A DNA stretch of 54,891 nt. Source: a virus. Location: positions 1 through 54,891 of IMG/VR virus record IMGVR_UViG_3300032173_000007, one strand, 5' to 3'. The translations under genes were made by a program, and so were the position numbers. This document shows positions 43,075 to 53,399 of this stretch, one piece after another (positions within the stretch are counted from its first letter, which is position 1; each line of letters opens with the position of its first letter). The notes under the pieces were generated by a model, which was given only the letters and a program-made list of their open reading frames with translations, was not told where the DNA came from and searched no databases.

Positions 43075-43199
43075 ATAATAGAAGGCAGGCAGTTAACCAA
43101 AAAAGGAGAGCGAAAATGAGAAACGGTTTAGGAACTGAATGGGTAACCCCCGGGCTTGAGCCGCATGCGTTGTATTCATTAACTAAATTCAAGATAACC

Positions 43200-43225
43200 G
43201 GGGGCCGAAGGGCCCCCAAGGAGGG
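43200..43225 (+). repeat. Hairpin-SD cassette 1
   Basis: GGGGGCC (43200-43206), loop GAAG, GGCCCCC (43211-43217), then AAGGAGGG, 5 bases before ATG 43230. First of six such units; the loop is GAAG here and GNRA in most of the others. It differs from the rest because no stop codon separates it from the upstream frame. Confidence 0.85.
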
Positions 43226-43229
43226 AAAG

Positions 43230-43430
43230 ATGGAAAGAAAGTTAATGGTCAAGCAGTTGGTGGGCAAAATTCAAATCAAATACGGGCTTGCTCATCTTTA
43301 CGAGAGTGGTGAGCCGGGTTGGGTTGTAATTCGGCCCCTCTTGCCTTCCGGCTGCGAGGGGGGCTTAGAATTTGCATATAAACGAACAGATTTTAAGCCC
43401 GGAGCTTTGCGCAAGGCTTTACGAGTATGA
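43230..43430 (+). CDS. Small hypothetical protein, hairpin operon gene 1
   Basis: The 66-aa product begins after cassette 1: MERKLMVKQLVGKIQIKYGL, then EPGWVVIRPLLPSGCEGGLEFAYKRTDF, a mixed alpha/beta fold with no known family. An upstream ATG at 43116, behind its own AAAAAAGGAGAG site, is in the same frame with no stop and would add 38 residues, with the hairpin inside the coding region; that alternative start cannot be excluded. Confidence 0.6.
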   Translation: MERKLMVKQLVGKIQIKYGLAHLYESGEPGWVVIRPLLPSGCEGGLEFAYKRTDFKPGALRKALRV

Positions 43431-43444
43431 ATTAACCTTAACTC

Positions 43445-43468
43445 GGGGCCGCAAGGCCCCAAGGAGGG
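43445..43468 (+). repeat. Hairpin-SD cassette 2
   Basis: GGGGCC (43445-43450), GCAA tetraloop, GGCCCC (43455-43460), then AAGGAGGG. ATG follows at 43472. The GCAA loop is a GNRA tetraloop. Confidence 0.85.
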
Positions 43469-43471
43469 ATC

Positions 43472-43834
43472 ATGAGCAACTATAGAGAAAAAGAGTTTTG
43501 TTCTGATTCTGGTCTAACATTTCCCGAAGCTTACCAACTACACAAGAAGTTGTGGAGTTGGCTGGCAGAAAATCCCGGTTGCTGTAAACGAGATTGGCCG
43601 GGATGGGCAGAAAACGGCGGTGATGCGCCACCCGTCTTGAATCATTGTTTTGCTTGCGAGATCGCTCAAGCTGCTAAACGGGGAGATTGTACTTTGTGTC
43701 CGATCGAATGGCCGGGCGGGTATTGTGCAAATGAGCAGAGTCCGTTTTCCAAGTTTTGTAATGCCCCTGATATTCCTAAGCGGGTGGCTGCTGCTCAGGA
43801 AATAGCCACACTTCCTTGGCGAAAACGCAGTTAA
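43472..43834 (+). CDS. Cys-rich protein, hairpin operon gene 2 (paralog of 49706)
   Basis: The 120-aa product has LHKKLWSWLAENPGCCKRDWPGWAENGG, CFAC and CTLCPIEWPGGYC, then a basic EIATLPW ending. The same order of motifs occurs in the 49706-50107 product (LHQKLWNWLTENP...KDWPEWIENGG, CFAC, CPIKWPNGYC, AAREIATLPW), so the two are paralogs. Zinc binding is likely through the Cys pairs. Function unknown. Confidence 0.8.
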   Translation: MSNYREKEFCSDSGLTFPEAYQLHKKLWSWLAENPGCCKRDWPGWAENGGDAPPVLNHCFACEIAQAAKRGDCTLCPIEWPGGYCANEQSPFSKFCNAPDIPKRVAAAQEIATLPWRKRS

Positions 43835-43841
43835 CTAACCG

Positions 43842-43864
43842 GGGGCCGAAAGGGCCCCAAGGAG
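43842..43864 (+). repeat. Hairpin-SD cassette 3
   Basis: GGGGCC (43842-43847), loop GAAAG, GGCCCC (43853-43858), then AAGGAG. ATG 43872 follows. The upstream stop (TAA) and TTAACTAACC precede the hairpin, as in cassettes 2 and 4. Confidence 0.8.
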
Positions 43865-43871
43865 AAAGAAA

Positions 43872-44156
43872 ATGGTATATTACTACATTGGGGATGGGAA
43901 AAAGTTTGACACAAATGCCCATCAAGTCATCTACGCGGATGGGCATTACTCCTCTCGCGGAGTGAGATACTATCTCACCCGCGAAGGAAGGATAGTGTGC
44001 GAACAATGGTCTCGTTGGCAAGGTGAACACGACCATGCCAGGGAGATTACCGTCGAAGAGTTTCTACATGACATGTTCCTTTCTCCGCATCCTGACCGGG
44101 CGGAGAGGGCGATTCGGATCGCGGGCTTGCAGACTCGCGTTCCGGATTTCAAATAG
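43872..44156 (+). CDS. Hypothetical protein, hairpin operon gene 3
   Basis: The 94-aa product begins MVYYYIGDGKKFDTNAHQVIYADGHYSSRGVRYYLTREGRIVCEQWSRWQGEHDHAREITVEEF and ends with a helix. It looks like a small alpha/beta protein of unknown family. It lies between cassettes 3 and 4. Confidence 0.72.
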   Translation: MVYYYIGDGKKFDTNAHQVIYADGHYSSRGVRYYLTREGRIVCEQWSRWQGEHDHAREITVEEFLHDMFLSPHPDRAERAIRIAGLQTRVPDFK

Positions 44157-44179
44157 AGAGAGTGACAATTAACTAACCC

Positions 44180-44206
44180 GGGGGCCGAAAGGCCCCCAAG
44201 GAGGGG
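44180..44206 (+). repeat. Hairpin-SD cassette 4
   Basis: GGGGGCC (44180-44186), GAAA tetraloop, GGCCCCC (44191-44197), then AAGGAGGGG. ATG 44210 follows. This is the cleanest copy: a 7-bp perfect stem with a GAAA loop next to the Shine-Dalgarno sequence. Confidence 0.9.
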
Positions 44207-44209
44207 AAA

Positions 44210-44416
44210 ATGGACGAGGGGCTTAAAAGCTTCTTAAAAGAATTGGACGAAAGACTCCGCCAAACAGGTGTTTGTCCGAATTGTGGGAAGCCACGCTCTG
44301 GCATCCTACGGCCGAAAGGAAATTATCGGGCCCGAGGATTCCGGGGCAACGCTTACTACGAACCGGAGGGGAGAGAAGAAGCTGGAATGTGCACTTGCAA
44401 AATAAAAGAAAAATAA
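44210..44416 (+). CDS. Small zinc-ribbon protein, hairpin operon gene 4
   Basis: The 68-aa product has VCPNCGKPRSG and later MCTCKIKEK, giving a CxxC...CxC zinc pattern, with an N-terminal helix (GLKSFLKELDERLRQTG). Family unknown. Confidence 0.72.
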   Translation: MDEGLKSFLKELDERLRQTGVCPNCGKPRSGILRPKGNYRARGFRGNAYYEPEGREEAGMCTCKIKEK

Positions 44417-44424
44417 TCAAAAGA

Positions 44425-44444
44425 GGCCGCAAGGCCCAAGGAGG
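44425..44444 (+). repeat. Hairpin-SD cassette 5 (degenerate)
   Basis: GGCC (44425-44428), GCAA loop, GGCC (44433-44436), then CAAGGAGGA. The stem is only 4 bp, shorter than the others, but loop and Shine-Dalgarno are the same. ATG 44450 follows. Confidence 0.7.
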
Positions 44445-44449
44445 AAGTC

Positions 44450-45034
44450 ATGATTAGAATTATATCTCACGATCTCTCAAACTCTTGTTCGGTTGCCCGG
44501 CACGGCCGGCAAACTTGGCTTGTCGGGCGGGAAGGACAGCAAATCTTCGCTGTCCGCATTCGAGCAAAAAAAATAAAAACATTGGACGAAGCACTTGCCT
44601 GGCTTCGCCCGGAGGATGTGCCACACTATGCCCTCCGGCAAGGGGATTTATATTTCGTCCCCCTGCCGGGTTGGAGTCCGCCACTTTTGACAACCAACCT
44701 CACCCGCCCCGATTTCTCGGACGCGATAGAGTTCAATCAGCCGCCGCCTCGGACCTGGCGACGGACTTGCTGTCAAGAGTTTTCCCGTTTGCCTGCCCAT
44801 TCTCACCGCCTCGAGCAACCGGGGCGGGTAGTATGGGACGAAGGGGAAACTGCCTTCGTCGGGCGAAAAGGCGTAAGGTCACACCCTTGGAGAGGCCGTC
44901 CGCGTTATTTCGTTCGCGGACGCATAACCCACCCCGAGCACGGAATGCTCGACGTGGGTTATATTTGGCACGAAGTTGTGCCAAACAGGGCCGTCGGCCC
45001 GTGGCGGGTCGACCAAAGGTGGCAAGGAGATTGA
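44450..45034 (+). CDS. Conserved hypothetical protein, hairpin operon gene 5
   Basis: The 194-aa protein has the pattern seen in a widespread phage/archaeal family: WLVGREGQQIFAVR, then LDEALAWLRPEDVPHYALRQGDLYFVPLPG, then HSHRLEQPG..., a central VGRKG... and THPEHGMLDVGYIWHEVVPNRAVGPW. The role of this family is not known to me. It is GC-rich. An overlapping frame at 44485 is rejected because this one has the cassette and family-like features. Confidence 0.78.
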   Translation: MIRIISHDLSNSCSVARHGRQTWLVGREGQQIFAVRIRAKKIKTLDEALAWLRPEDVPHYALRQGDLYFVPLPGWSPPLLTTNLTRPDFSDAIEFNQPPPRTWRRTCCQEFSRLPAHSHRLEQPGRVVWDEGETAFVGRKGVRSHPWRGRPRYFVRGRITHPEHGMLDVGYIWHEVVPNRAVGPWRVDQRWQGD

Positions 45035-45038
45035 GAGC

Positions 45039-45064
45039 GGGGCCCGCAAGGGCCCCAAGGAGGG
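45039..45064 (+). repeat. Hairpin-SD cassette 6
   Basis: GGGGCCC (45039-45045), GCAA loop, GGGCCCC (45050-45056), then AAGGAGGG. ATG 45068 follows. A perfect 7-bp stem. Confidence 0.87.
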
Positions 45065-45067
45065 ATC

Positions 45068-45517
45068 ATGTATTCTCTACAAACCTATCGTATTCAGTTG
45101 CAAGCAAGAGAAGCAAGAGAAAATTTAGGCACGGCATGTAATCCGAAGAGCGTAGTAGCCATTGCTGAAGCGCTCTTTCAAGATTTAGATGCCGATCGGG
45201 AGCATTTTGTGCTCTTGTGTGCTGATACGAAGAACAGGATTTACGCTTATAAAGTCCTGTTTTCAGGCACTCAAGACAGCACAATGGTGGGAATCAAAGA
45301 AACCCTGCGAGCAGCTCTGCTCCTTGGCGCAGCAGCGATCATCATTGTGCACAACCACCCAAGCGGTGATCCCACTCCCTCCGAGAACGATAAAACAACA
45401 ACCCGGAACGTTGGGCGGGGATGTCGAGAGATTGATCTAAGATTTATAGATAGCATTATCCTTGGCGAAGAAAATTACTTTTCTTTCGCCGAAGGAGGTA
45501 AGTTAAATTCCTTATAG
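45068..45517 (+). CDS. radC: RadC-like JAB/MPN (JAMM) domain protein
   Basis: The 149-aa protein has the RadC/JAMM core: HFVLLCADTKNRI, and the catalytic motif HNHPSGDPTPSENDK at about residues 95-109 (H95, H97 and D108), with an ILGEENYFSFAEGG ending. It lacks the N-terminal HhH region of host RadC, like many phage or plasmid versions. RadC proteins resemble deubiquitinating metalloproteases, and the phage function is unclear. It is the last gene of the hairpin operon and is followed by a terminator. Confidence 0.9.
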   Translation: MYSLQTYRIQLQAREARENLGTACNPKSVVAIAEALFQDLDADREHFVLLCADTKNRIYAYKVLFSGTQDSTMVGIKETLRAALLLGAAAIIIVHNHPSGDPTPSENDKTTTRNVGRGCREIDLRFIDSIILGEENYFSFAEGGKLNSL

Positions 45518-45536
45518 GGATAATGCTTGAACGAAA

Positions 45537-45564
45537 AGAGGGGCTGAAAAGTCCCTCTTTTTTT
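45537..45564 (+). terminator. Rho-independent terminator after radC-like gene
   Basis: AGAGGGGCT (45537-45545), GAAA loop, AGTCCCTCT (45550-45558), then TTTTTT. This 9-bp stem with a GNRA loop and T-run is a textbook terminator for the hairpin operon. Confidence 0.92.
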
Positions 45565-45608
45565 ATGCCTTACTCATACCGCTCGATTTATCCGCTTCCC
45601 AGTTTGGA

Positions 45609-53278: not shown

Positions 53279-53377
53279 ATGAAAGACATAGAGAAAGTGG
53301 GTTATTTTGTTATCATTTTGGCTACGCTTAATGCCATAGTGATAACAATACTATTCGTGATTCGTTGTTTTCGATAA
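53279..53377 (+). CDS. Tiny membrane peptide A (32 aa)
   Basis: AAAGGAAGCATAAAG precedes ATG 53279. The product MKDIEKVGYFVIILATLN... has one hydrophobic helix and ends IRCFR. It closely resembles the neighbouring tiny peptide (53400-53498), sharing MKD, F, TLN and the CFR/LFR ending. Confidence 0.7.
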   Translation: MKDIEKVGYFVIILATLNAIVITILFVIRCFR

Positions 53378-53399
53378 ACAATGAAAGGAGGCTATGGAG

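Follow-up and report, generated by a model that had tools for sequence, protein, structure and literature searches.

Introduction

The CUUCGG intercistronic hairpins of T4 and other phages are extraordinarily stable and lie mostly between genes (Tuerk et al. 1988, as cited in PMC8948821), and a hairpin in the T4 gene 32 leader, cited in that source as well, stabilises its mRNA. T4-like phages also carry promoter-early-stem-loop (PeSL) cassettes, with stem-loops at the boundaries of small early genes, which are reported to shuffle genes (PMC4503421). Start Associated Sequences (SAS) and extended SAS (ESAS) elements occur in cluster K mycobacteriophages and cluster EF Microbacterium phages, and according to the authors there is no support for RNA pairing of the ESAS inverted repeats (PMC3203893, PMC7302621). 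Finally, the standby module of bacterial 5' UTRs consists of a distal single strand, a hairpin and a proximal site; ribosomes accommodate such hairpins, which are tolerated if a single-stranded surface is available beside them (PMC3936740).

The sequence-only reading of the locus described here knew of no equivalent for its hairpin cassettes. This was wrong in kind, as the T4 CUUCGG hairpins (PMC8948821), the SAS (PMC3203893, PMC7302621) and the standby modules (PMC3936740) are described. The module is a GNRA-capped variant of the known phage intercistronic hairpins that abuts the Shine-Dalgarno (SD) and has a leader, and not an unprecedented device. The unusual part is the presence of six consecutive cassettes within one operon.

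Results

The operon and its genes

The window, by which we mean the whole stretch of DNA analysed, is the complete 54,891-bp record of a virus of microbes. The minus strand carries tailed-phage structural genes, including terminase and portal, and the plus strand early genes, among them recT with others around it (48.0-53.2 kb). A plus-strand operon of six small genes occupies 43.2-45.5 kb:

43230..43430, plus strand: gene 1, 66 aa, no family match
43472..43834, plus strand: gene 2, 120 aa, Cys-rich, distant relatives in four phage or archaeal-virus records
43872..44156, plus strand: gene 3, 94 aa, relatives not found
44210..44416, plus strand: gene 4, 68 aa, CxxC and CxC motifs, no family match
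44450..45034, plus strand: gene 5, 194 aa, relatives not found
45068..45517, plus strand: gene 6, RadC-like JAB domain protein (Pfam RadC, E 1.7e-35)
45534..45565, plus strand: putative terminator-like hairpin with U-run at the operon end, as read from the sequence

In the family search only gene 6 (RadC) was matched and genes 1-5 were not, and homologue searches with the operon genes returned none or distant ones only. The RadC query found relatives at 41-43% only, all without cassettes, and the starts of three gene 2 homologues that we inspected were without such a hairpin. Gene 2 has its distant kin among the proteins of gut phages and of two archaeal viruses, one of Methanofastidiosa and one of Methanosarcina, a kinship that may hint at an anaerobic habitat. 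The hairpin at 45534..45565 aligns with the STnc420 terminator stem, with a score below the STnc420 threshold.

Cassettes before six consecutive genes

Each gene of the operon is preceded by a GC-rich hairpin, an SD and a start codon, arranged as follows:

43200..43224, plus strand: cassette 1, GGGGGCC(GAAG)GGCCCCC at 43200-43217, 7 bp; AAGGAGG at 43218-43224; ATG at 43230
43445..43467, plus strand: cassette 2, GGGGCC(GCAA)GGCCCC at 43445-43460, 6 bp; AAGGAGG at 43461-43467; ATG at 43472
43842..43864, plus strand: cassette 3, GGGGCC(GAAAG)GGCCCC at 43842-43858; AAGGAG at 43859-43864; ATG at 43872
44180..44204, plus strand: cassette 4, GGGGGCC(GAAA)GGCCCCC at 44180-44197, 7 bp; AAGGAGG at 44198-44204; ATG at 44210
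44425..44444, plus strand: cassette 5, the weakest, GGCC(GCAA)GGCC at 44425-44436, 4 bp; AAGGAGG at 44438-44444; ATG at 44450
45039..45063, plus strand: cassette 6, GGGGCCC(GCAA)GGGCCCC at 45039-45056, 7 bp; AAGGAGG at 45057-45063; ATG at 45068

That six consecutive genes carry the cassette, as the sequence-only reading had proposed, was confirmed with the pattern GGCC-N2-8-GGCC-N0-6-AAGGAG. It matched exactly six times in the window, always on the plus strand (43203, 43447, 43844, 44183, 44425 and 45041) and nowhere outside these cassettes, versus a mean of 0.02 expected from shuffled windows. Five of the hairpins lie between consecutive genes and the first precedes gene 1. All GNRA-looped hairpins of the window with at least 6 bp and at least 5 G/C pairs belong to these cassettes, again on the plus strand. 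A structure scan lists five of the stems, the 4-bp copy at 44425 being absent from its listing, and in single-strand folding each of the six is present in the minimum-energy structure. No comparable GC hairpin was found at the other gene starts of the window, including those around recT (48.0-53.2 kb).

The loops had been described as mostly GNRA, which holds strictly for only three or four of the six (GAAG, GCAA, GAAA(G), GAAA, GCAA and GCAA in order). Cassette 3 can be drawn either with 6 bp and the pentaloop GAAAG, or with 4+2 bp, a G.G mismatch and the loop GAAA; its arms are unequal (GGGGGCC with GGGCCCC) and mismatched relative to cassettes 4 and 6.

Two further observations concern starts in the window. 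The frame of gene 1 is open upstream to an ATG at 43116, in frame with the ATG at 43230, and passes through cassette 1. The ATG at 43116 has an AAGGAG and a TTAACCA leader of its own, with the hairpin absent. From this arrangement, gene 1 may be started at two sites; alternatively, an original start may have had the cassette inserted after it. At 53361-53395 on the plus strand, an AT-rich 10-bp hairpin, TTCGTTGTTT(TCGAT)AAACAATGAA, abuts AGGAG-GCT-ATG.

The stems were correctly said not to be terminators: on the coding strand no T-run follows, and AAGGAG stands directly after the stem in all six copies. An intrinsic terminator was also rejected by the terminator scan, in which no plus-strand cassette appeared. 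In Rfam nothing reached the gathering threshold, and the radC RNA motif had no match even at E 10.

Position of the hairpin relative to start and stop

Stem and AAGGAG are directly adjacent (0 nt) in five of the six cassettes, the copy at 44425 having a gap of 1 nt, and the end of the stem lies 11-13 nt from the ATG. The distance between the hairpin and the upstream stop codon, on the other hand, varies from 4 to 23 nt. With its distance to SD and ATG nearly constant and that to the upstream stop variable, the hairpin belongs to the start.

The same distances bear on a possible but less probable explanation, namely processing and end protection. A host or phage endonuclease would cut the A/C-rich intergenic stretch, the hairpin would become the new 5' end and also a 3' barrier for the upstream message, and the operon would be converted into stable single-gene mRNAs. 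Exonucleases are well blocked by hairpins that have 6-7 G/C pairs and a GNRA or UNCG loop, and a G-poor single-stranded stretch followed by a stable hairpin is found at most junctions. The stabilisation of T4 gene 32 mRNA by a 5' hairpin, as cited in PMC8948821, is in keeping with it as well. However, the stems are too short for RNase III, and it is the spacing from the SD that is constant, at 0-1 nt in the window and 0-3 nt in most copies elsewhere, not the 4-23 nt to the stop; this links the hairpin with initiation and not with the gene junction.

Comparison with described systems

With the T4 CUUCGG hairpins the cassettes share a stable tetraloop hairpin between phage genes. They differ in their loops, which are GAAG, GCAA and GAAA(G) and never C(UUCG)G (UNCG was seen only in a related module of phage G010, see below), and in architecture, as the stem here abuts the SD, is often preceded by an A/C-rich leader and occurs once per operon gene. 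Like the SAS, the cassettes recur in numerous, nearly identical copies where the ribosome binds ahead of small non-structural phage genes, and the inverted repeat added just upstream in the cluster K ESAS is a further likeness. The SAS, however, is a fixed 13-bp GGGATAGGAGCCC-type sequence, whereas the cassette has a hairpin and AAGGAG at its ribosome-binding site and lacks the SAS consensus; unlike SAS and ESAS, the cassettes keep their structure while the letters change.

PeSLs (PMC4503421) are likewise repeated regulatory cassettes with a stem-loop at small-gene boundaries. They are composite promoter-terminators, whereas here promoter and U-run were not seen and the hairpin is part of the ribosome-binding site. 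No sigma70-like promoter was found at any cassette; a promoter specific to the phage may still be present. If the leader is taken as the distal single strand, standby-site modules would have the same anatomy, but they describe any hairpin-containing 5' UTR biophysically, whereas the cassette is repeated and nearly fixed.

The upstream leader

A TTAACTAACC-like stretch had been noted ahead of most copies. It is exact in two of the six, is replaced by a looser TTAAC in two, and is absent from the remaining two. The exact copies are:

43831..43840, plus strand: TTAACTAACC, leader of cassette 3, overlapping the stop codon of the upstream gene
44169..44178, plus strand: TTAACTAACC, leader of cassette 4

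TTAACTAACC is one instance of a general A/C-rich, G-poor leader. Over 24 cassettes, the 20 nt upstream of the hairpin contain 1.96 G, versus 4.33+/-0.43 in matched starts, and 14.1 A+C, versus 10.5+/-0.49. None of 20000 contig-matched draws was as extreme, and the effect size is approximate given that the controls include non-intergenic sequence. Examples are CTAACCAAACCAAACCAGAC, CCACCAACTAACCAACCACA and TTAACTAACCC. Pairing is likewise lower in the nearest 15 nt upstream than in other start regions (0.66 versus 0.48 unpaired, p 2e-6).

In a standby-site module the distal site is single-stranded and the hairpin stays clear of the 16S pairing site. In the cassettes the leader is less paired than controls overall, yet the window copies have D of 0-5 nt and a low to middling surface-area score (As 6-11), in part because of possible pairing between the GG of the SD and the CC that directly precedes the stem.

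Pairing within the window

Among the six window copies, lengths change in a matched way, one G-C pair is exchanged for C-G (cassette 6) and one copy is mismatched (cassette 3); by themselves they offer modest evidence for pairing. In the six-sequence alignment A2 there were no double-sided changes; MAFFT had split the stem, which makes this alignment uninformative for covariation. Among eight aligned cassettes, three pairs changed on both sides, a number reached by 3 of 500 shuffles, with two of these three changes coming from another phage, G009. The pair count of the eight has a clear maximum at the true register.

The right flank GGGATCATG is common to cassettes 2 and 6, and cassettes 3 and 4 have their left flank in common. 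The copies are therefore at least partly duplicates of each other, and cassette 3, as judged from its letters, resembles a recombinant of two sub-types. These features are also what one would look for if the short GC repeats at gene boundaries were shuffling handles that recombine, so that small genes are gained, lost or swapped with their own start signal, as likewise proposed for the T4 PeSLs. Cassette 3 combines a cassette 4-type 5' arm with a cassette 6-type 3' arm and is mismatched, as expected of a recombinant, and the operon genes are missing from phages with 74-79% terminase identity. An identical cassette occurs in an unrelated phage (G006) whose metagenome is shared with the relative G004. 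Shuffling would account for the copying, but not for the fixed placement at the SD, nor for pairing that is kept with different letters in unrelated phages, and we consider it improbable as the explanation of the cassettes.

The module in other viruses

Five contigs with 74-79% terminase identity also have the structural module of the window. These terminase relatives, which are fragment contigs, are without homologues of the operon genes and without cassettes, and by this comparison the operon seems to be accessory or to change fast.

The cassette was found again in unrelated phages. In G006, GGGGCC-GCAA-GGCCCC-AAGGAGG-ATG is present letter for letter before a small gene, and G009 has two cassettes whose stems differ. 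As a control for the GGGGCC-stem pattern, reversal of the SD letters lowered the number of matches from 12 to 3. A second stem pattern, GGGGGCGNAAGCCCCCN0-2AAGGAG, was matched in 12 viral contigs (about nine independent cases, as there are near-identical pairs among them), with an ATG just downstream at normal distance in 12/12. The ORFs that follow these matches are mostly of 42-121 aa, and the GC content of the contigs is 0.33-0.60.

Both pattern families were chosen by sequence, and only structure-only finds are unbiased. When these contigs were scanned for structure alone, 14 additional GNRA/UNCG hairpins came up, 4 of which lie directly against an SD with a start, versus 0.5% expected at random positions (p 6e-7). 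Among these finds are the second of two modules with UNCG loops in G010 and a stem of reversed polarity in G015. Between 60634 and 64507 of the contig, one strand of G015 (IMGVR_UViG_3300030107_006047) contains GGGGGC(GCAA)GCCCCC twice and GCCCCCC(GAAA)GGGGGGC once; the opposite strand has a fourth copy, farther from its SD. Each of the G015 copies follows an AAC-rich leader, and the GCCCCCC(GAAA)GGGGGGC stem is of reversed polarity. In most copies from other phages the SD is 0-3 nt from the stem, and most phages with the module have a single copy, usually before a small gene.

Searches elsewhere gave little. In 257 Gb of cellular genomes there were 13 scattered GGGCC-type cassettes, most without a following start codon; no GGGGGC-type cassette was present in 398 Pseudomonadota genomes, a count that at the rate seen in viruses is uninformative, and the plasmid search returned chance matches only. 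Bare-hairpin matches in cultured phages were mostly without an SD downstream, the exceptions, each with a single hairpin-SD-start module, being Pantoea phage Phynn gene 83 and Enterobacter phage phiT5282EW gene 131. As named phages, Phynn and phiT5282EW are usable for experiments in laboratory hosts.

A different arrangement was observed in Streptomyces phage BillNye (NC_042105, 60000-109999), which has thirty hairpins with varied stems, each directly followed by AAGCT(T) and with GAAA, GCAA, UUCG or other loops. They are mostly located 10-25 nt before the SD and start, with 30 on the coding strand versus 3 on the other. The series resembles an independent, strongly covarying series of start-linked or processing hairpins, and we know of no AAGCT(T) hairpin series of this type in the literature.

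What the recurrence says about the hairpin

Across phages the letters and polarity of the stem change, while pairing, tetraloop class and position stay, and this is the best evidence for RNA structure. The earlier statement that the stems vary yet stay paired is thus upheld by the different and reversed stems of other phages, but is weak for the six window copies, which are partly duplicated. That the structure acts at the RNA level and is tied to translation starts is borne out by its recurrence before starts in unrelated phages, with stems that are different or polarity-reversed. As a class, the module is real and RNA-structured, and it is more widespread than could be known from the window by itself.

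Repeated short palindromes in phages are typical of DNA sites, such as the 17-bp repeats of cluster O (PMC4351075), and the cassettes might be read as a DNA-level element of this kind, that is, an operator or a replication or transcription signal that appears as a palindrome. We regard this as very improbable, given that half-site spacing shifts by 1-2 nt (cassettes 3 and 6), that loop orientation is constant relative to the gene, that stems can reverse polarity, and that every copy is on the coding strand at a start.

The sequence-only reading had also suggested a site for an RNA-binding protein. A phage or host protein that binds a GNRA-like hairpin near the SD could set or shut off the translation of all six genes together, and there are six near-identical sites in one operon, with loops that are all G[AC]A[AG] and always in sense orientation. 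SD-adjacent operators are known, an example being the hairpin operator of T4 gp43 (PMC3014915). Across phages, however, stem letters and polarity vary and loops switch to UNCG, so that a common recognition sequence is lost, and most phages have a single copy. A regulatory site is therefore quite unlikely; as stem and loop are exchangeable across phages, this applies to a sequence-specific site in particular, even though the window loops are uniform. Overall, a generic and very stable RNA hairpin agrees better with the evidence than a terminator, a DNA operator or a sequence-specific protein site.

Discussion

We infer that the cassette is a module that insulates and stabilises each translation start, with a probability of roughly 0.5. 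What the analysis shows is the placement of the cassette, its pairing, its recurrence ahead of starts and the make-up of the leader; insulation, stabilisation and independent translation are our reading of these. Its parts would be an A/C-rich, G-poor, unpaired leader, a very stable GC tetraloop hairpin, a strong SD flush with it, and the start codon. Once the SD has paired with 16S rRNA, the stem would begin where the duplex ends, at the mRNA exit of the 30S subunit, as suggested by ribosome anatomy. In the initiation complex the hairpin would thus sit just outside the SD/anti-SD duplex and be accommodated without unfolding, and the leader could supply the single-stranded surface beside it for the ribosome. 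The hairpin would separate the start from the upstream mRNA and the end of the preceding gene and would stop exonucleases, whereby every gene of the operon would be initiated, translated and stabilised independently.

It had been suggested that the hairpin keeps the SD free. Folding with the hairpin forbidden barely changes the predicted accessibility of the SD, and on these calculations the hairpin neither sequesters nor frees the SD by folding.

The recurrence in unrelated phages probably reflects a portable translation-start or mRNA-protecting device, kin to the T4 hairpins, with this function being a prediction. Such a generic module, with exchangeable stem and loop, would travel with small accessory phage genes or be copied between them. 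Phages constantly gain small genes that need immediate expression in a new context. More tentatively, at less than even odds, a portable leader-hairpin-SD cassette may let many unrelated phages express new small genes wherever these have landed, and here may serve a whole accessory operon.

Engineers use insulated ribosome-binding sites, and a structural start module with changing letters would be their equivalent in nature. The module also makes it testable whether a hairpin flush with the SD is neutral, helpful or regulatory for initiation. Any phage collection can be screened with its definition, namely the leader composition, a stem, a tetraloop, AAGGAG after 0-3 nt and then an ATG, and the matches would point to small-gene start codons overlooked by annotation.
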